42,846 bases of DNA from an uncultured Methylococcaceae bacterium (GTDB lineage: Bacteria; Pseudomonadota; Gammaproteobacteria; Methylococcales; Methylomonadaceae). Below are positions 13,031 to 25,037 of the stretch, in pieces. The DNA is taken from assembly GCA_903945605.1 (NCBI GenBank), contig CAJAWH010000006.1, forward strand, positions 1 through 42,846, written 5' to 3'. Numbering within the stretch: the stretch's first letter is position 1; each line of letters opens with the position of its first letter. Position numbers and translations under genes: made by a program. The notes under the pieces were generated by a model. It was not told the DNA's origin, did not search any database, and saw only the letters and a program-made list of their open reading frames with translations.

Positions 13031-13951
13031 TTGCGTTTTTCTGTTCCCCACCCAATTCCTTACCAAGGTAGTAAACGCCGCTTGGCATCAGCTATTCTTA
13101 GCCACATTCCCGAAAACCGATATACACGCTTGGTAGAACCGTTTGCTGGTTCATCTGCCGTTACTTTAGCGGCTGCATCCCGAAACATGTTTGCTTCTTA
13201 TGTGATAAATGATGCTCTTGAACCGCTGATAGAATTGTGGAACAAGGTGATTCAAGACCCTACAGAAGTCGCCATAAATTACAGCACGTTATGGCATAGA
13301 GAACGGGAAAAGCCCATTGAAGCGTACTACGAAATTCGTTCCGAATTCAATGTGGATCGTAGCCCTGCCAAGTTGCTTTACTTGTTAGCCAGATGTGTAA
13401 AGAACGCAGTTCGGTTCAATCCGGCTGGCGAGTTTAACCAATCACCCGATAAACGCAGAAAGGGTACGCGTCCACAACTGATGGAGTTGGAATTGGTTGC
13501 CGCACATCAGGTTCTTGCGGGTAAATCCCAAGCGGTATATGGAGATTTTTTGCCGTTATTTTTATCTGCCCAAGAAGGGGATTTTTTCTACTTGGATCCG
13601 CCATACCAAGGAACAAGCGAAGGCAGGGATCAGCGCTACGTTGCTGGTGTCAGCCGTGAGCGTGTGATAGAAGCACTGGAGATTCTCAACGAAAAGCGAA
13701 TCCCCTTTATTCTTAGCTATGATGGTTTTTGTGGAGAACGAAATTATGGTGCGCCACTTCCCAAGACCATGGCGCAGCAGATTTTGCTGGATGTTGGCAG
13801 GTCCAGTCAGGCCACCTTGAATGGTCGTGGCGACGTGACCATTGAATCGTTGTACATATCCCATACTATTCCAGTTATACCCCAGCCAAGCGCGACAACT
13901 CTTTCACTAAATGATTTTGAGAAACAGACAACACTATTCACATTTACTTAG
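13031..13951 (+). CDS. D12-class (Dam-like) adenine-N6 DNA methyltransferase
   Basis: A 306-residue modification enzyme. It begins at TTG 13031, supported by GAGGTG five to six bases upstream and by motif X at the very N-terminus (PYQGSKRRLA, 10-19). Motif I is VEPFAGSSAV (35-44), which binds S-adenosylmethionine; motif IV is DPPY (189-192), the catalytic tetrad for adenine-N6. The order X, I, target-recognition region, IV places it in the alpha (D12) class with Dam and M.DpnIIA. The target sequence cannot be read from the protein. It faces the HNH nuclease gene with the ends overlapping by 8 bp, a typical type II restriction-modification arrangement. Confidence 0.9.
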   Translation: MRFSVPHPIPYQGSKRRLASAILSHIPENRYTRLVEPFAGSSAVTLAAASRNMFASYVINDALEPLIELWNKVIQDPTEVAINYSTLWHREREKPIEAYYEIRSEFNVDRSPAKLLYLLARCVKNAVRFNPAGEFNQSPDKRRKGTRPQLMELELVAAHQVLAGKSQAVYGDFLPLFLSAQEGDFFYLDPPYQGTSEGRDQRYVAGVSRERVIEALEILNEKRIPFILSYDGFCGERNYGAPLPKTMAQQILLDVGRSSQATLNGRGDVTIESLYISHTIPVIPQPSATTLSLNDFEKQTTLFTFT

Positions 13952-14648
13952 TATGGTTTTTTAAAATCCGCTTGATTTCTTCAGCTACGCTGCACTTATT
14001 ATTATCCGCGTTATTCCTGACCCGCTCAAAGTCACGCACCTCATAACCCATCCAAATAACGTCCACCCGCCGTTGTGGCTGCATGGCAATGTGGGTATGT
14101 TCTGCCGGTTGCGCCCAATAACAAGAGAGGCAGGTAGCAAATGATTTGATTTGTAACCAATTTTTACAGCATTCGCATTCCCATGACTTTTTTCTGTTAC
14201 ATGAGCCGCACAGAACTTGGTAAGGCTGCTTTTCTTCGCTTTGTGATTCGCCACCAACCTCATACGGAATACGATGATCAACCTGCAAATTGTGCAATGC
14301 TCCGCAAATCTGGCATTTATCACCCGCTGCATGAATAAGAGCATCCCTTTCTTTCTTTGGCAGAAGTCGCCGACCTTCCTTACCTGATTCTAACTCACTG
14401 TCATCAAATATATACGAAGCAATCGAACGCCCGTTGGTATGCTTAACCATGATGGTTTTGAGCCGGAAACCCAAATCTCTGACATCTCGAGCCGCACGGG
14501 GAGGGTGATCGTATCCTGCCTGATTGATTTCCTCGGTTGTGACCGCGCCATTTTTAACGATAGCGTCCAAAACAAACCGCGCCCTTTTATTCGTCACAGC
14601 CGAAATTCTTTCCAAAAGCTCTTGCGGAAAGTTAGGCACATTAGTCAT
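13944..14648 (-). CDS. HNH restriction endonuclease
   Basis: A 234-residue protein with an N-terminal helical/winged region (1-85) and a central HNH nuclease: CQIC (112-115), VDHRIPYEVGG (123-133) with His125 as the likely general base, and CGSCN (147-151). The CxxC pairs should hold a structural zinc. A second cysteine cluster follows (CECC 158-161, CLSC 173-176), probably another zinc knuckle. With the facing DNA methyltransferase and the overlapping controller gene, it is best read as the restriction subunit of a type II system. AAAGGAA precedes its ATG, which lies inside the end of the controller gene, so translation is probably coupled. Its specificity is unknown. Confidence 0.85.
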   Translation of the reverse strand: MTNVPNFPQELLERISAVTNKRARFVLDAIVKNGAVTTEEINQAGYDHPPRAARDVRDLGFRLKTIMVKHTNGRSIASYIFDDSELESGKEGRRLLPKKERDALIHAAGDKCQICGALHNLQVDHRIPYEVGGESQSEEKQPYQVLCGSCNRKKSWECECCKNWLQIKSFATCLSCYWAQPAEHTHIAMQPQRRVDVIWMGYEVRDFERVRNNADNNKCSVAEEIKRILKNHTK

Positions 14649-14865
14649 CGAATAATTCCTTTACCGAAACACCCAATTCAGCGGCTATCTTGTGGATGTT
14701 CAGAAGGCTAATATTTCTTTCGCCCCGCTCAACACTGCCGATATAGGTGCGATCAAGATTACAGTTAAGTGCTAGCGACTCCTGTGAAAGCTCTTTTTGC
14801 TTTCGAAGTTCCCGCACTCGCGCACCAAAGCATTTTTGAAGCTGGGTCTCATTTTGTTTATCCAT
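14641..14865 (-). CDS. XRE-family controller (C) protein
   Basis: A 74-residue helix-turn-helix protein. The HTH lies at about 27-52 (SQESLALNCNLDRTYIGSVE, then RGERN), with the C-terminal helices AAELGVSVKELF. Length and sequence match C proteins that time restriction-modification expression, activating the restriction gene only after methyltransferase has accumulated. It overlaps the nuclease ATG by 8 bp and is upstream of it, the usual C-R operon order. There is no clear ribosome binding site before its ATG, which is common for C genes. A perfect 6-bp inverted repeat 30 bp upstream is a candidate operator. Confidence 0.88.
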   Translation of the reverse strand: MDKQNETQLQKCFGARVRELRKQKELSQESLALNCNLDRTYIGSVERGERNISLLNIHKIAAELGVSVKELFDD

Positions 14866-14894
14866 AGGGTGATTAAATCATCTTGGATGACAAT

Positions 14895-14908
14895 AAGTCC
14901 ACGGACTT
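14895..14908. promoter_or_regulatory. Candidate C-protein operator
   Basis: AAGTCC-ac-GGACTT is a perfect 6-bp inverted repeat located 30 bp upstream of the controller ATG and just downstream of the proposed -10 element, at the likely transcription start. It has AGTC/GACT half-sites like known C-boxes but in the opposite orientation to the usual GACT...AGTC. The position suggests repression rather than activation. Confidence 0.45.
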
Positions 14909-14913
14909 CGAGT

Positions 14914-14944
14914 ATCATATTATTTTGTCCATTGCTGTTTTCAA
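14914..14944 (-). promoter_or_regulatory. Possible promoter of the controller-nuclease operon
   Basis: On the minus strand TTGAAA (14939-14944) and TATGAT (14914-14919) are 19 bp apart. The spacing is long, as expected for a promoter that needs an activator, but no second operator is obvious upstream. Confidence 0.35.
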
Positions 14945-15079
14945 TAACAGAAGGCGTTGACGGCCAACCCACTCTCTCGCAAGGTTATTCGGAAAACAGC
15001 TGCGAACTGCATGGCACCAAAAAAGCTTGCAAAACTCAAAAAAAGAACTCGATATGGAGTTTTATATTGTTTTAACAAT

Positions 15080-15165
15080 TACCGAGCGTTGTATGACAAT
15101 CTGACACAAAAACAACTTGACCAAGTAGTGGCACGTTTTGGCAATGGAAGCTATTCGATTACTTA
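15080..15165 (+). pseudogene. Remnant of a dbpA-like helicase gene
   Basis: The + strand frame here reads RALYDNLTQKQLDQVVARFG and then NGSYSI, clearly related to VQALHGDLDQKQRDQVLVRFGNKSCSI of the intact DbpA. The DNA at 15098-15163 aligns without gaps to 12309-12374 with about 70% identity (about 76% in the central 54 bases). Only this part of helicase domain 2 is recognisable; neither the upstream DEAD core nor the C-terminal RNA-binding domain is present. Sequence further left (about 14957 on) is open but shows no helicase match. The divergence is too large for a recent duplication of the neighbouring dbpA, so it is more likely a relic of a second helicase gene. Confidence 0.6.
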
Positions 15166-15185
15166 AAGTCAAGCGAGTTTGTTTC

Positions 15186-16903
15186 TCAACGACTACCTTG
15201 TCCCATCAAGGAATACCAAAACACAGGGGAGACGGGCGTTGAAAAATGTCGATGCGCAATAAGATCAAGCACCCAAAGTCCTGCCTTAGCAGCAGGTGAA
15301 TCAGAAACCACTTTTTTAAATTCAGAATCGCATATCATATCTATCTGCTCTCGATATTCTGCAGCAGTAGAGGGAAAATAGATTGGTGCTTCAGTGACAC
15401 CAGATTCGAACTGAGCAGGCTGAAAATAAAGATATTGATATAGGTCTTTTTCAGGATGCCAAAGCTGAATACACACTTTAGGATATTTGTCTCTAGCATT
15501 CTTAGCTCACTGCTCGTAAAGCACATCCATCCCCATAATGACGCTAAAGCTTGCGATGCTTGCCAACATCCAAGACATTTCCATCATTCGATCCGTTGCT
15601 TGCTCACCTAGCCAGCCCCCTTCTTCCACTAAATCATCCAAAGAATCTGTCGCAATAGGCACATATTTCTTTTTTCTGTAGGCATAATCGACGTTCCGAA
15701 AGAGCTTTTGTAGCCACTCCTCGGCAATATTTCTGTGACCCGTACCCAATAACGCGAGCATTGCCAAAGTGATATCTTGGCTATGTCGATCAAGGCATGG
15801 CGTATTGGATACGCCATTGTTTACCAGTATGCTAGCCAAAGCTTCTGTCACTTCATTGGTTTTTATTTGCCAGTTATTTTTTGCATTCTCCGATGGGTGT
15901 GGACTTAAGGCTTGATGTAAAGAGAATAAACCCAAGCTTGCCAAAATACCTATTTGTTCGAAAACGACCAAAGAAGATTCAATACCATTAGAGGCATATC
16001 GAGTTAAACCATTTTCTCTATAGCAGTGCGGCCGAATCCTTTCGAAGTAATGCAATGAAAAGCGATTATAATGTTGCCACATAATTTTAAAAGCCTTTGT
16101 AGCCGCATTTTTTTACTATCTTCATCTACAAGTTGAATTCGATGCCACGACCACAACACTGCACGTTCTATGGCAAGAAGACCTTGGCGAGTATCGCCAT
16201 CGTCGCGTAGCGCCCAATGAGCGAACATCTGCGCTGACAGATTGACAATTTGTAAAGCTTTCAACAATGCTTTTCCTGTCTTGGCTTCCTCAGTTAACTG
16301 TCCTCTATCGTTCAAATCCAAGATGCGCATAAATAAATGATGCAAATCTTGCCTGCTATACTCGCTATCGCCGGATAATGCTAGCGCACGCCGTAAATGG
16401 CGACGATCTTCATCAAGAAAAATATGTTCATCCAAGAGATGTTTTTCGATCAGAATAGCGATATCATCCGCTCCCCAAAATTTAATACATGCCTTTTCTT
16501 GGTTATCGCTAACAAAACCGCTCCAATTGCTTTGTATGGTTTGTTTTAAATCACCGCTGGTGGCAAGGATAATGCGAATACTACGATTTTTATCTTGGGG
16601 TTCTAAATGCGATTTCAAGTAGACATCAAAAATCTCGTCAATGCTTTGGCGCACGGACTGATTGCCACCATTCCATTCACCTCGCCCAATATCTCCTTGT
16701 TTAACCACCAACAGAAGTAACTCATCTTCCCCTGTTTCTGCATTTTTGCCCCTGGCGGCAATGTCCACTCCGTATTGTCGATTACCTATTTGTGGCCGCG
16801 AAACAGGCACATATCCCATTTCCAGCAATAGGTTTGGTAATAAACGATCAAGCTCATCCCGTTCTTTGAGGGAACGCAGATATTCGGAAATAACTAGCTT
16901 CAT
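15186..16903 (-). pseudogene. PD-(D/E)XK-like nuclease-fold protein, frame-broken
   Basis: Read as one gene this would be 572 residues, but three pieces are seen. Piece 1 (16903 down to about 16085) has an N-terminal restriction-endonuclease-like fold: GVDIAA with Asp47, then LLLLVVKQGD with Lys68 in the D...xxK pattern, then WNGGNQSVRQS and IRIILATSGDL. The usual Glu/Gln two residues before the Lys is Val66. Piece 2 (16082-15507) continues in the -1 frame (MWQHYNRFSLHYFERIRP). The switch falls at T-TTA-AAA (16085-16091), so one base is missing or ribosomes slip there. An in-frame TGA (15507-15509) interrupts piece 2, after which the same frame stays open for 106 residues (AKNARDKYPKVCIQLWHPE). 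Downstream of the nuclease-like part it is helical and unknown. Its ATG overlaps the stop of the 652-residue gene, so they form an operon. Confidence 0.7.
16085..16091 (-). other. Slippery heptamer at frame junction
   Basis: The minus strand reads T-TTA-AAA in the zero frame exactly where the nuclease-like frame must move by -1 to continue. This fits the X-XXY-YYZ rule for programmed -1 frameshifting. A one-base loss in the A run would look identical, so the heptamer alone does not decide between the two. Confidence 0.4.
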
Positions 16904-18858
16904 TCATCGCCTCTTTTGGCAAACTTATACATAGAACGTGTAATTTCGTAGTTAAGAGGGTCTATAACAAATTGTGCTGGCAAAGTGTAAGAAAGTGAAT
17001 GGGAGCCAAGGCGATTGATCACACTAATTTTGTTAGCAAAAATTGAAAAATTGCCCGTTCCAGCTTTAAGGGGGACTTTTGTGAATAATTGCTGAAATGT
17101 ACATTGCTCATTAGCTTTTGCTACCGCATCCCGAAGTTCTTTTTCTTTTTTTAGCGCAATTGTTCGCCTTATACGCATGGGAATAGGCGGATACAGTTCA
17201 ATTCTATTTGGCAATTTCTGCATCGTATCGGCATAAGCAAGTAGTTCATTTTCGGTTCTTTGTAATAAAACTACTATTTCTGGTGTGGCGTTGTTCAATT
17301 TTTCCTTAATCGCTTCCAACGTTCCTTGAAGGTAATTTCGCCCTATTGCATTAACCAAAAGTTCATATACCCACTCAAAAGTTCTATGTTGCGCGTCTTT
17401 CGTATCTAACAGCGAAAACGCAAGTGAAATTAGAGGCTCTTCAAAGCACGTCCAGCCCAGTAAACGCCGAACAAGGTATTTAATGTCCTCATAATTTAAG
17501 GTGTCAATAATATCTTTTGAAAAAACAAGCTTATTGACACCATGTCCCCATAAATGACTGGTCACCTCCATAAAAGCATGTCCCAGTAGTTGCTCATCAG
17601 AAACTAGCCAGCGAGTAATTAACTCCGATAATAGAGTTTTATTATTTTCTAACTCCCTTATACTTTGCTCAAAGCTTGTGATCCAGCTACCATCTTCTAT
17701 GCTGATGGGATGTTTGATAAGCCAACCTTCTAATGTTGCACATATTTTTTGATCATAATTGCCATTTTTTATTAATTGTGAAAGCATATGGTCAAAATCA
17801 TGCGTACGCTCTACATTTAAATCCATCAATGCATAAAGTATATCGGTTAGATGTGGGTGATTTTGGATGACAGCAAGATTCATAAAAATGAATTCACTAA
17901 GTACCTGCAGTGCTTCTTGGTCTTTTGGTTTAGCATGAGCCAATAGTTCGGCAACTAACTCAGGCTGCAAAACAGCACATTTAGACAAGGAGTTCAAAGC
18001 TTGCAATCTGATATTTGAATCGGCATGATAGGCCATCTTTTTCAATGTTGCCTGTAAACGATCTTTTAAGCTAGGCTCTTTTTCCAAATGTACTAACATA
18101 TATCCCAGCACCCACAACGCTGTTACTGAAATATCGATGCTATCAGAGCCTGCATCATTAAGTGCAATCTCAGTGGCTTGATTAGCTTGACCTGCCATAG
18201 CCATACCGATTAAAGCTGCGCGGTACAAATTCTTATTTTCATCTGCGGCTATATTTTTTCGGACAAGTGTATACAGTTCTTTTGCATACATAGGATGCGC
18301 TGATAAATAGTTACTAACCTGATCGAAAAAAATACCGGCTGCAAAATCACCCAATGTTTTTGAATGCTGAGCTGCTGCTAACCCAGCTAAATCATTCATA
18401 TTTATGTTGATCAAAAACGGCAATGCATTACCAATATTTCTCAGAATATTAAAAATATTCCAGGCATCTGAGCTAGCAATTACATCGATTGCAACATGTA
18501 GGATATTCAGATTTTCAGAAACCAATCCTAAAAATCGTCCGCTAGCGAAATCTGTGTGACTAATTTCGGGAATCCATAATCGGTATGCTTCATCAAGAAT
18601 TTTTTGTGCATCCGTTAATAAATCTAAGTCCTTAAGCGTACGGAAACTATGCACGGCAGTACAGTGATTTCTCGCCATTATTGATGTAAATATTAATTCA
18701 TTTTGTTTGATGGAAAAAATTTGACTAACGTGATGATAGTTATTGATAGTTGATATGCTAATCGTGAGATTTTCGGAGTTTTTACAATGAAGTTCAGATG
18801 CAAGACTTGCAACTTCTATATCAACATCTTCAATTGGAAAGCTAAACAATACAGGCAT
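16900..18858 (-). CDS. Large helical, HEAT-like repeat protein of unknown function
   Basis: A 652-residue protein I do not recognise. Residues 1-90 are mixed alpha/beta. From about 195 to 345 there are repeated amphipathic helices (YRAALIGMAMAGQANQATEIAL; ISVTALWVLGYMLVHLEKE; IRLQALNSLSKCAVLQPELV), consistent with HEAT/ARM-type repeats; a long basic helix lies near 565-590 (RRTIALKKEKELRDAVAKA). No catalytic motif, membrane segment or signal peptide is visible. It ends in ATGA overlap with the nuclease-like gene, so the two are translationally coupled. The ATG at 18858 lacks a clear ribosome binding site, and the upstream sequence is AT-rich. Base composition differs from the housekeeping genes around it, which suggests transfer. 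By analogy with two-gene defence modules it could be the sensor or scaffold, but that is inference. Confidence 0.75.
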   Translation of the reverse strand: MPVLFSFPIEDVDIEVASLASELHCKNSENLTISISTINNYHHVSQIFSIKQNELIFTSIMARNHCTAVHSFRTLKDLDLLTDAQKILDEAYRLWIPEISHTDFASGRFLGLVSENLNILHVAIDVIASSDAWNIFNILRNIGNALPFLININMNDLAGLAAAQHSKTLGDFAAGIFFDQVSNYLSAHPMYAKELYTLVRKNIAADENKNLYRAALIGMAMAGQANQATEIALNDAGSDSIDISVTALWVLGYMLVHLEKEPSLKDRLQATLKKMAYHADSNIRLQALNSLSKCAVLQPELVAELLAHAKPKDQEALQVLSEFIFMNLAVIQNHPHLTDILYALMDLNVERTHDFDHMLSQLIKNGNYDQKICATLEGWLIKHPISIEDGSWITSFEQSIRELENNKTLLSELITRWLVSDEQLLGHAFMEVTSHLWGHGVNKLVFSKDIIDTLNYEDIKYLVRRLLGWTCFEEPLISLAFSLLDTKDAQHRTFEWVYELLVNAIGRNYLQGTLEAIKEKLNNATPEIVVLLQRTENELLAYADTMQKLPNRIELYPPIPMRIRRTIALKKEKELRDAVAKANEQCTFQQLFTKVPLKAGTGNFSIFANKISVINRLGSHSLSYTLPAQFVIDPLNYEITRSMYKFAKRGDE

Positions 18859-18918
18859 AAAGTATTTATATTTAGGCCCTACTTGCAGGCAGATTTAGAA
18901 TTGGATTTGTTATTCGCG

Positions 18919-19983
18919 CTATCTATTTGGATAATCGGTATAACCCACTGGGCCTGGCGAATAAAAAGTGGCAGGATTAGGATCGTTTAAGCCAGCTCCC
19001 TTTTTAAATCGGCTGGGTAAATCAGGGTTGGCCAAAAAGCTAACACCAAAGGCCACCGCATCCAACTTGCCTTCAGCTATGGCATTAGCCGCTTCTTCCG
19101 CTGTATACCCCATGTTACCAATCAAAACACCCTTATAATGGGCGCGTATCGGTGTCATGACATCGCCCGTTTGCTGGCTAAAGAAATCGCCGCGCATGAC
19201 GTGCAAATAAGCCAAGTCATAATCATTCAAGCGTTCTGCCAGCCATCTCGACAAGCCAATGGGGTCGCTGTCTATCATGCTGTTGAAGCTGTTAAGCGGA
19301 GAAATACGCAAACCTACCCGCCCGCTGCCAAAAACCTCACAGGCTACTTCAACAACCTCCAGCATTAACCTGGCCCGGTTTTCAATGCTGCCGCCATACG
19401 GCCCAGAGCGTTTGTTTGCTCCATCGCGCAAAAAACTGTCCAGCAGGTAGCCATTGGCCCCGTGTACTTCCACGCCATCAAAACCAGCGGCTTTAGCATT
19501 TTGTGCCGCTTTTTTGAACCCTTCGATAATCGTGGGCAGTTCGTCATCAGTCAGTTCGCGTGGCACAACATAGGGTTTTTTGCCCTCGGGGGTATGCACT
19601 TCATCATTCAATATGGCCAAAGCACTAGGAGCCACCGGTTGTGCGCCATTATTAAGCAGGGGATGGCAAGCCCGACCACCGTGCCAAATTTGCAGGAATA
19701 TCTTGCTGCCAGCGGCGTGTACTGCATCGGTGACCTGTTTCCAACCTTTAATCTGTGCGTCGGAGTAAATGCCAGGCTCCATCCAGAAAGCAGAATTACC
19801 TGCCATAACCATGGTCGCTTCGGCGATGATTAGCCCGGCACTGGCACGTTGGGCATAGTATTCCGCCATTAATGCGCCCGGCACATGATCAGCTTCCGCC
19901 CGGCAACGGGTTAGTGGAGCCATCAAGATACGATTGGCAAGCGTTACGTCGCCAATCTGCAATGGTTTGAATAGACTGTCCAT
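18919..19983 (-). CDS. nemA: Old Yellow Enzyme family ene-reductase
   Basis: A 354-residue FMN-dependent TIM-barrel oxidoreductase. MDSLFKPLQIGDVTLANRI (N-terminal), MAPLTRCRA, LQIWHGGRACHP, GVEVHGANGYLLDSFLRDG (His and Asn of the substrate pocket) and SIENRARLMLEV are hallmark segments, and the C-terminus YTDYP is typical of the NemA/alkene reductase branch. The enzyme reduces activated C=C bonds and nitro compounds with NAD(P)H. AAGGAG stands six bases before the ATG. Base composition matches the host rather than the AT-rich genes to its left, so the island boundary probably lies near 18.9 kb. The symbol nemA is by family resemblance. Confidence 0.88.
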   Translation of the reverse strand: MDSLFKPLQIGDVTLANRILMAPLTRCRAEADHVPGALMAEYYAQRASAGLIIAEATMVMAGNSAFWMEPGIYSDAQIKGWKQVTDAVHAAGSKIFLQIWHGGRACHPLLNNGAQPVAPSALAILNDEVHTPEGKKPYVVPRELTDDELPTIIEGFKKAAQNAKAAGFDGVEVHGANGYLLDSFLRDGANKRSGPYGGSIENRARLMLEVVEVACEVFGSGRVGLRISPLNSFNSMIDSDPIGLSRWLAERLNDYDLAYLHVMRGDFFSQQTGDVMTPIRAHYKGVLIGNMGYTAEEAANAIAEGKLDAVAFGVSFLANPDLPSRFKKGAGLNDPNPATFYSPGPVGYTDYPNR

Positions 19984-20068: not shown

Positions 20069-20431
20069 TTAAACAATTGGAAAGGACAAGGCTACAATTT
20101 TCTGATGGAGTTCCGGCAGGTCGTTGTGGATAGTTTTCCATACGATTTCAAAATCGATTTTAAAATAACCATGCGCCAAAGCGTTACGCATCTCATACGC
20201 AAAATTTAACGGTAATTCTGGATGTTGCTCGACAAATAAAGGATGGTGGCATTTAATGTTATTAGATGCTTCCCCGATAACCTCAAAATTGCGGATTACT
20301 GCATCTTGGGTTTTTTCATCCTGAAGAAAACCAACCTCATCCAAATCTTCGGTATAACGCTCGATTCGTTCTATCGCTTCGGAAATATGCCGTAGATATT
20401 CCGGCAAACGTAAAATATCAGCCTTGCTCAT
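20069..20431 (-). CDS. hepT: HepT-like toxin (DUF86, HEPN RNase fold)
   Basis: A 120-residue helical HEPN protein. RNALAHGY at 82-89 is the RX4HXY active-site motif (Arg82, His87, Tyr89) of HepT, the toxin of the MntA-HepT system. HEPN toxins cleave RNA, and Tyr89 is where the partner adds AMP groups to inactivate it. Its ATG overlaps the stop of mntA (ATGA), so the two are made together. The length is normal and nothing appears broken. Confidence 0.9.
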   Translation of the reverse strand: MSKADILRLPEYLRHISEAIERIERYTEDLDEVGFLQDEKTQDAVIRNFEVIGEASNNIKCHHPLFVEQHPELPLNFAYEMRNALAHGYFKIDFEIVWKTIHNDLPELHQKIVALSFPIV

Positions 20432-20718
20432 ACTGGCTGGGCTTCTTCGAGCACACTATCCCTAAAATTTTCAGGTAATGCCTTTGGCGTTAAAACATCC
20501 ACCGCCACCCCTAAAAGCTCCTTTAATTCGTAACGAATGGCACCTATGTCAAAAAGGGTAGTGTCTTGAGTGGGATCGACCAGCAAATCCAAGTCACTGC
20601 CATCGATGTCATCGCCATGCACCACAGAGCCAAAAACGCGCACATTGACAACACGATGCCGCAAAGTGATTGCAAGGATGGCTTCGCGGTGAATGCCTAA
20701 GGCAACAGATGGACGCAT
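20428..20718 (-). CDS. mntA: MntA-like antitoxin nucleotidyltransferase
   Basis: A 96-residue minimal nucleotidyltransferase. FGSVVHGDDIDGSDLDL contains the GSX10DXD signature (Gly30, Ser31, Asp42, Asp44). MntA transfers AMP to the active-site Tyr of HepT and so neutralises it. I chose the ATG at 20716-20718 (AGGAT seven bases upstream) over an open TTG at 20739. It is the first gene of the two-gene unit, placed between topA and the ene-reductase gene. Confidence 0.9.
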   Translation of the reverse strand: MRPSVALGIHREAILAITLRHRVVNVRVFGSVVHGDDIDGSDLDLLVDPTQDTTLFDIGAIRYELKELLGVAVDVLTPKALPENFRDSVLEEAQPV

Positions 20719-20802
20719 GACGGGTATCCTATTAATCAATAGTGCTGTTTATGTTGCAGAACAGAGACGTTCCCCCCTTATCCTCACTCCAAAGCTTGCC
20801 CT

Positions 20803-23673: not shown

Positions 23674-24780
23674 TTATTTTATACGGGTATAGCAACCGCC
23701 AGGGATTGCCTCGATGTAACCTTGCAATTCTAAAAGTAATAACAGGGATGAGACGGTTTCAACCGAAAATCCGGCATTTTCAACCAAGCTGTCGATGGAA
23801 GTCGGGCTGAACAAGACTAGATTCAATAATTTTTGTTGCTCCAGGTCAAGCATTGATTGCCCCATCACTGGTGCTTCAATTGCATCGTATTGAATATATT
23901 GACTTAATTCTTCAAGAATATCTTGCGTCGTTTCGACTAATTTGGCACCGTCGCGAATCAATGCGTTACAACCACGGGCCAAAGGGTTGTGGATAGAGCC
24001 AGGAATGGCAAACACTTCCCGATTTTGTTCCAAGGCCATCCGTGCCGTAATCAAAGAACCGCTTTGTTTGGCGGCTTCCACCACCAATAAACCTTGGCAA
24101 AGTCCGCTGATAATGCGGTTACGGCGGGGAAAATGGTTGGCTTTAGCCGTGGTGCCGGGCGGAAATTCCGAAACAATGGCCCCGCTGGCCACAATCGCAT
24201 TGGCAAGGTCTTTGTTTTGCGCCGGATAAACCCGGTCCAACCCCGTTCCGGCAACCGCAATGGTAAGGCCGCCAGCCGCCAATGCCCCTTGGTGGCTGGC
24301 GGCATCAATACCCAAGGCCAAACCACTGGTTATCACCCAGCCTTGCTGGCTAAGGCTTTTAGCAAAGCTGAAGGCCGTTTCTTTGCCCAGGGCCGACGGG
24401 TTACGGCTACCGACCATGGCAAGCTGCGGCAACCCCAGTAACTGCCCGTCACCGCGCACAAACAACAGCGGCGGCGGGTCGGCAATTTCTTTCAGCAGCG
24501 GCGGATAAGCCGCATCATTAATGGTAATGACCGCATTGTTGGGTTGCCCCAACCACGACAAATCCTGTTCAATACCCGCCCAATCGGGGTTTTTGATGGC
24601 GGTGACCAGCACCTCCTTCAAACCCAACGCAGCTAAAGCCCGCGGCGGTTCCGTATACAACTCGGGAGGCGTATGCGTTTGCAGGATTTTAAGGAAAGTG
24701 CGGCAGCCTAAGCCCGGCACACGCAACAATGCAAGCCAAAACTTAATATCTTCTGTCGCGGTGGCTATGGAGGCGGAAAT
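23674..24780 (-). CDS. dprA: DNA-processing protein DprA
   Basis: DprA loads RecA onto incoming single-stranded DNA during transformation. The Rossmann-like core is clear: MVGSRNPSALG, TSGLALGIDAASHQGAL, AGTGLDRVYPAQN, NHFPRRNRIISGL and GSLITARMALEQ; the last 65 residues are a winged helix. The start is unusual. The family's N-terminal segment is readable as EDIKFWLALLRVPGLG, but no ATG, GTG or TTG precedes it in frame after the upstream TAA (about 24799). The first ordinary start codons (TTG 24732, TTG 24729) lie inside the conserved segment. An ATT at 24778-24780 has AAGG eight bases before it and is given here as the start; a CTG at 24784-24786 is the other choice. The rest of the gene is intact. 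Confidence 0.88.
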   Translation of the reverse strand: MSASIATATEDIKFWLALLRVPGLGCRTFLKILQTHTPPELYTEPPRALAALGLKEVLVTAIKNPDWAGIEQDLSWLGQPNNAVITINDAAYPPLLKEIADPPPLLFVRGDGQLLGLPQLAMVGSRNPSALGKETAFSFAKSLSQQGWVITSGLALGIDAASHQGALAAGGLTIAVAGTGLDRVYPAQNKDLANAIVASGAIVSEFPPGTTAKANHFPRRNRIISGLCQGLLVVEAAKQSGSLITARMALEQNREVFAIPGSIHNPLARGCNALIRDGAKLVETTQDILEELSQYIQYDAIEAPVMGQSMLDLEQQKLLNLVLFSPTSIDSLVENAGFSVETVSSLLLLLELQGYIEAIPGGCYTRIK

Positions 24781-25037
24781 GTTCAGGACCTTGGCTTGTT
24801 ATCTAAAATGTGGGAAGAGGGCAGTCGCCCCATGAATGCTGGCACAATTGGTTCAGCAGTCTTACAAAGGGTGTGCCTTACAGCAGCCAGCCCCCATAAA
24901 CCAAGTTGATGCCATGGCCTAAAAAATTTATTTGCCGACATACCGGCCAATATCCTTTAAAGTTGCCTCGGCTACGTTCTAAGTTTAGATGAATTCAGCT
25001 AGAATTTCACTATTACATTATCCTATAGGAGAGATTG
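24781..25037. other. Divergent intergenic region between dprA and def
   Basis: About 260 bp without a supportable gene. It must hold the promoters for dprA (minus) and def (plus). A weak plus-strand pair TTGCCT...TAGATG with 17-bp spacing is seen near 24965, and TAGAAT near 25001 could be an alternative -10. I see no structured RNA. Confidence 0.4.

Follow-up and report, generated by a model that had tools for sequence, protein, structure and literature searches.

The Olokun locus and its recurrence

The DNA analysed here, called the window, is contig C6 (42,846 bases) from a draft genome that totals 2.88 Mb over 175 contigs. On its minus strand lie two neighbouring genes (Table 1), which we read as Olokun, an already described two-gene anti-phage system encoded by oloA and oloB, with oloB broken in this sequence; the probability of this reading is put at about 0.85. 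The first gene, oloA, is an intact open reading frame (ORF) of 652 codons whose stop and the ATG of the following gene share 4 bases (16900-16903). An initial annotation, made from the letters alone, had described a two-gene operon coupled by an ATGA overlap. The long first frame and the overlap are there, but the second gene is not one open frame: the 1,718 bases of 15186-16903 hold three pieces, which are a 299-codon frame (16004-16903), a second frame ending in TGA (15507-16112) and a third piece (15186-15506). The region is AT-rich, as had been remarked, with a guanine-cytosine content of 0.37-0.42 in the four kilobases 15001-19000 versus 0.43-0.57 in the other kilobases of the window.

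Are the two proteins new? The initial annotation called the pair unrecognised and undescribed, and this label falls: both proteins match Olokun, an outcome that the annotation itself had named as contrary to its claim. Residues 83-650 of the first protein match the OloA model of PADLOC-DB (E 2.7e-82). The OloB profile is matched, part after part, by the three pieces of the second gene (Table 1). The intact OloB of G017, the nearest relative among the genomes examined and called the sister genome below, matches the same OloB model at E 5.1e-159; the OloB model has no second match in the window's own genome. Because the PADLOC models of OloA and OloB match both proteins, the pair is Olokun, and it is not a new discovery but a new, broken copy of a described and catalogued system. 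Neither protein has a Pfam or NCBIfam family above its cut-off; the first has a sub-threshold match to Pfam HEAT_2 (E 0.099), and the pieces of the second gene have nothing in Pfam. Against the sequences in the PDB, OloB gave a single chance-level match (E 0.99).

The system is reportedly due to Millman et al. 2022. A survey of E. coli defence islands names Olokun as a previously described system (PMC10121019), and this survey and one of Pseudomonas islands (PMC12629846) place it in defence hotspots. A 2026 review gives its mechanism as unknown (PMC12926258), and a phage-isolation paper speaks of it as not thoroughly characterised (PMC12592470). A literature search on the names OloA and OloB returned no defence paper, as judged by titles.

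Does the pair recur as neighbours in other genomes? A pattern-based scan for OloB in one genome per species (84,980 species) gave 143 confirmed relatives, and the best 80 were kept, a selection that favours complete copies. The expectation that the two genes travel together holds well, with OloA upstream of OloB on the same strand in 80/80 kept loci; 68 of these OloA calls were made by PADLOC and 12 by a profile built from those 68. In alignment A2, which includes the OloA of the window, every one of the 69 members has a PADLOC OloA match. The two genes overlap by 4 bases in 64 of the 80 loci, by 17 in five and by 1 in four, with other spacings in three and no single upstream ORF in the remaining four. 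OloA is split over two frames in L041, L060, L062 and L108 and is cut by the contig end in L064, while in L096 about 1.2 kb separate oloA from oloB. OloB is one open frame in 79/80 kept loci and split in L060, a Treponema metagenome assembly in which each of the two genes is spread over two frames (L060:4402-7680). The titles of the kept loci include Methylomonas, Nitrosomonas, Xanthomonas, Pseudomonas, Sphingomonas and Shewanella, and also Paenibacillus, Rubrobacter, Pseudanabaena, Treponema, Cloacimonadota and Anaerolineales.

The OloB model has matches in 9 of 398 genomes of a phylum sample and in 14 of 311 genomes of an order sample, counts that take in remnants, the genome of the window itself and, in each sample, one unrelated pair. 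Three matches were set aside as remnants or chance: G334 (a 45-position match), G607 (a C-terminal fragment with two stops) and G520 (E 8.6e-4, four stops, missed by the profiles built here). The pairs of G190 and G046 were also dropped. They match the PADLOC OloA and OloB models, but by profile comparison no link appears between their OloB-like proteins and the 79-sequence OloB alignment described below (hhalign probability 0.2%, with a second profile of two sequences only). In these pairs (L013:1390-4312 and L026:3-2958) the OloB model scores 171 and 185 bits. By eye, the second protein of each has a nuclease-like motif (ITD...IELK) near its C-terminus, and in L026 this end also matches Lamassu LmuA. 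Two families may be mixed in the PADLOC OloB model; alternatively, HEAT-plus-nuclease pairs may come in a second kind. Since OloA was found in 2 of the 20 listed genomes of the window's genus, the distribution of the locus within the genus is patchy. The pair occurs on four viral contigs, two of them alike (L109, L112), and OloA had no match on the plasmids searched.

When the OloB gene of Brenneria was searched against 5,426 E. coli genomes, 14 gave matches, each covering at least 80% of the query; the OloB gene of Cedecea gave no match in E. coli genomes. The pair of E. coli strain Ceylon31 scores 371 bits against the OloA model and 688 bits against the OloB model of PADLOC, and its OloB can be aligned to that of the sister along residues 1-554 of 567, with 27% identity (E 1e-47). 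Both of its genes are annotated as hypothetical. This pair (L119:5434-9704) adjoins prophage tail genes and a site-specific recombinase, followed by a broken IS4-family transposase. For the neighbourhoods in general, a script listed 127 flanking ORFs at 36 of the 80 loci, with the later loci thinned by a size limit, and 102 of them were compared with PADLOC at E 1e-20. Among PADLOC families, 137 have a match in these ORFs, and of the 25 families listed most are Gabija GajA (2 members each); from these uncontrolled counts we claim no enrichment.

The break in oloB

What happened to the second gene? The initial annotation took it as entire over 15186-16903 and missed that it is interrupted twice. 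In a pairwise DNA alignment with the intact gene of the sister genome, whose OloB has 568 residues, the window's oloB carries a one-base deletion near 16115 and a TGA in place of a Leu codon at 15507-15509. Reading by eye can spot a defence pair rightly and yet miss that one of its genes is broken. When 21 ORFs of the sister genome were compared, 16 had a counterpart in the window at 80% identity or more, and 14 of these 16 are uninterrupted. The other two are OloB, which carries both lesions, and dprA, whose alignment has one stop upstream of the listed start of the window gene. At the dprA start (24729-24810) the frame of the sister reaches further upstream; the stop in the window is at about 24800, and the first ATG, GTG or TTG past it is a TTG at 24729, within the part conserved in the sister.

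OloB is one open frame in the sister genome and in G045. A programmed frameshift was considered and rejected, because OloB is uninterrupted in these genomes and in all but one of the kept loci, and because the window also has a stop codon. The pairwise ratio of nonsynonymous to synonymous change against the sister is 0.32 for oloB (31 synonymous and 38 nonsynonymous changes) and 0.62 for oloA, the latter resting on 13 synonymous changes (30 nonsynonymous). An inference of decay from these ratios was rejected, the comparison being pairwise and the counts small. Most likely oloB is a recent pseudogene here, and because of this Olokun is most likely inactive in this genome. A working system is unlikely, as the 299-codon product would keep the nuclease-like domain and lose the helical half.

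Table 1. Features of the window at and around the Olokun locus
Feature	Coordinates	Strand	Evidence
oloA, 652-residue HEAT/ARM-type alpha-solenoid, intact	16900..18858	-	ORF; PADLOC OloA 2.7e-82; pLDDT 89.8; HEAT/ARM PDB matches
oloB piece 1: OloB up to residue ~262, with Asp47, Lys68 and the entire nuclease-like domain; past that, out of frame until a stop	16004..16903	-	ORF; PADLOC OloB 9e-87, profile 1-285 of 556
Frameshift by loss of one base in an A-rich run, compared with the intact gene of the sister	16115..16115	-	Pairwise DNA alignment with G017
oloB piece 2, second frame: portion of helical C-terminal region	15510..16112	-	PADLOC OloB 1.8e-39, profile 265-455
In-frame TGA; the sister gene has a Leu codon there	15507..15509	-	Frames; G017 alignment
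oloB piece 3, frame shared with piece 2: C-terminal end	15186..15506	-	PADLOC OloB 1.4e-24, profile 459-554
Stretch of raised identity to the sister genome, probably recently exchanged; holds Olokun and the HNH nuclease	13648..19394	.	Sliding identity; synonymous divergence
D12-class adenine-N6 DNA methyltransferase	13031..13951	+	Pfam MethyltransfD12 8e-36; PADLOC MTase_II 5.6e-63
HNH restriction endonuclease	13944..14648	-	Pfam HNH 2.7e-5; PADLOC REase_II 9.6e-55
Small helix-turn-helix (XRE-like) frame, possible control protein	14641..14877	-	Open frame; label by reading of sequence

Predicted folds and the active site of OloB

The structure predicted for the window's OloA (from 69 sequences) is an alpha-solenoid with a mean predicted local distance difference test score (pLDDT) of 89.8. 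Its best PDB matches are AP2 and other HEAT/ARM proteins, the best at E 1.7e-4 and 29 of them at E 0.001 or better, in agreement with the HEAT-like character read from the sequence at the outset. For OloB the protein of L042 was modelled (79 sequences; mean pLDDT 88.0); L042 is a metagenome assembly from an uncultured Methylococcaceae bacterium, and its OloB and that of the sister genome are 100% identical. Residues 15-115 of this model form a core of the order alpha-beta-beta-beta-alpha-beta (H15-28, E32-35, E48-53, E60-68, H84-98, E108-115), which is the core topology of PD-(D/E)XK nucleases, and the rest is a long helical region. Asp47 immediately precedes one strand and Lys68 ends the next, so the N-terminal nuclease-like fold first seen by eye, with these two residues, finds its counterpart in the model. 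In the PDB the model comes closest to MspJI (E 9.3e-3, probability 1.00, template modelling score 0.17-0.21), and this match is weak.

Is the site conserved? The OloB alignment holds 79 proteins, that is, the 80 kept loci minus L060, with the broken copy of the window excluded. Asp47 and Lys68 are invariant in 79/79 and are also present in piece 1 of the window gene. In PD-(D/E)XK enzymes the second residue ahead of the Lys is usually Glu, Asp or Gln; here position 66 is Ser in 46 proteins, Val in 25 and Thr in 8. The initial annotation read Val66 correctly and took it as a cloud on the activity of this particular protein. The residue is no peculiarity of the window copy: because position 66 is Ser, Val or Thr throughout, Val66 is a family-wide trait and not a sign of decay. 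Acidic residues recur towards the N-terminus, with Glu14, Glu17 and Asp19 in 78 of the 79 proteins and a gap in one. Position 82, which lies 14 residues past Lys68, is Gln in 71, Asn in 7 and His in 1. In Cfr10I and NgoMIV the position corresponding to 66 is a Ser, and a relocated Glu stands 14 residues past the Lys, a parallel to OloB that serves as a lead and not as a test.

Weighing of the alternatives

Several points weigh against the reading of the locus as an Olokun system silenced by damage to a nuclease gene. The fold match of OloB is weak, with no PDB match at E 0.001, and position 66 is never Glu, Asp or Gln among the 79 aligned proteins, so that OloB could be a fold that binds without catalysis. 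Errors in the assembly, which is a draft, could account for one lesion or for both. The 299-codon product, which has the whole nuclease-like domain, could retain some activity. Last, the oloB ratio of 0.32 is not that of a long-dead gene, and therefore the break must be recent or false.

Is OloB then an enzyme at all? Its nuclease-like domain may be catalytically dead and serve as a module for binding DNA or a partner, while another factor cuts or kills. The residues at position 66 speak for this in every aligned protein, yet we regard it as rather doubtful, because the invariance of Asp47 and Lys68 and the near-constant acids at 14, 17 and 19 seem to go beyond what binding alone would need, and because Cfr10I and NgoMIV show how Ser at that position can go with a relocated Glu. 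It is unlikely, too, that Olokun is intact in the living organism and that the frameshift, perhaps with the stop, is an error of the draft assembly. The deletion does sit in an A-rich run of a genome in 175 contigs, and an oloB ratio below 1 would suit an intact gene; against this, two lesions of different kinds fall in the same gene, whereas no break is seen in 14 of the 16 matched sister ORFs, and the stop is a substitution and not a run-length error. That the pair is an undescribed defence or surveillance system is very improbable: general annotation would call both proteins hypothetical for want of a Pfam or NCBIfam family at cut-off, as it does the E. coli pair, but both match the PADLOC Olokun models over most of their length, and so does the E. 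coli pair. The damaged Olokun locus is the reading we keep.

Flanking genes and recent exchange

The restriction-modification cassette that had been placed next to the pair does adjoin it. The stretch 13031-14877 is a type II cassette made of the D12 methyltransferase, the HNH nuclease and the small helix-turn-helix frame, and the methyltransferase and nuclease genes are both uninterrupted relative to the sister genome. How old is this neighbourhood? The OloA of the sister is 96% identical to the window's, and synonymous divergence (dS) from the sister differs greatly along the contig. The values are 0.485 (topA), 0.466 (def) and 0.432 (a DUF494-like gene) as against 0.032 (oloA), 0.091 (oloB), 0.131 (HNH nuclease), 0.221 (methyltransferase) and 0.216 (an ene-reductase-like gene); gene names are by reading, except the profile-tested ones. 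The silent-site divergence of oloA is 15-fold below that of topA, which suggests recent exchange.

The same pattern is seen in bins of 250 bases. Identity to the sister is 84-94% over 31855-20644, with one bin at 69%, and 93.6-100% over 19394-13648. Identity is 92.8% and 91.2% in the two bins that follow, down to 13148; with the sister contig running out shortly beyond, the block has no clear lower edge. The HNH nuclease lies within the block of high identity, the methyltransferase less clearly. Between the two long stretches, the bins of 20643-20144 are 98.4% identical and those of 20143-19395 are 89-92% identical. A nucleotidyltransferase/HEPN-like gene pair (label by reading) occupies 20072-20739 and is 98.4% identical to the sister, with neighbouring bins at about 89-94%; it is perhaps a second recently exchanged patch. 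On the simplest reading of these comparisons, the block would have been exchanged between the two lineages, or into both, after their split, and the oloB lesions would be later unless they are assembly errors. The Olokun locus beside the type II cassette is thus probably shared with the sister lineage by recent exchange.

A possible mechanism and comparison with known systems

How might an intact Olokun work? The picture of a defence module that joins a scaffold to a PD-(D/E)XK-like nuclease, drawn at the outset, fits the PADLOC matches, the predicted models and their fold matches in the PDB. In the mechanism that seems most likely, OloA, as a HEAT/ARM solenoid, would bind OloB and sense or recruit a phage product, acting as sensor or scaffold. 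The long helical region of OloB may bind OloA and would then be the meeting place of the two proteins, and OloB, through its N-terminal domain, would cut DNA as the effector. What the data show directly is membership of the family, the pairing of the genes, the predicted folds, the constancy of Asp47 and Lys68 and the lesions of this assembly. The binding of the two proteins, the trigger, the substrate and the cutting are what we infer, and for the cutting of DNA by OloB the odds appear about even. A more specific proposal, which is tentative, is that OloB is a relocated-acid nuclease: the acid missing from the (S/V/T)-x-K motif would be supplied by Glu14, Glu17 or Asp19, or its role taken by Gln82, and the OloA solenoid would hold the site off until infection. 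Lineages that gain the locus by exchange may then lose oloB and keep oloA, as here. What the present analysis adds for Olokun is the predicted folds of both proteins, the residues to mutate (Asp47, Lys68, Glu14, Glu17 and Asp19) and an absent acid at position 66 that is common to all 79 aligned relatives.

With the HEAT/ARM proteins (AP2 alpha, the PP2A A subunit, karyopherins), OloA appears from its model to share an alpha-solenoid fold; the likeness is in fold only, as OloA had no match up to E 1 among PDB sequences. MspJI (PDB 4f0q, 4f0p) is the nearest structure to the OloB model, by a weak match, and OloB differs from it by its long helical C-terminal region and by Ser, Val or Thr where MspJI has Gln. 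The closest comparison is with Olokun itself (OloA-OloB; PADLOC PDLC03925 and PDLC03926). Its working form needs two intact genes, and in the window oloB is interrupted twice. The window's OloA, with 652 residues, is longer than the 596-position profile, and the match starts at residue 83, which corresponds to profile position 19. In E. coli Ceylon31 the two genes are 1 base apart, whereas in the window they overlap by 4 bases as in most of the kept relatives. In gene order, in adjacency and in the match of both proteins to their models, the window pair is the same as Olokun.

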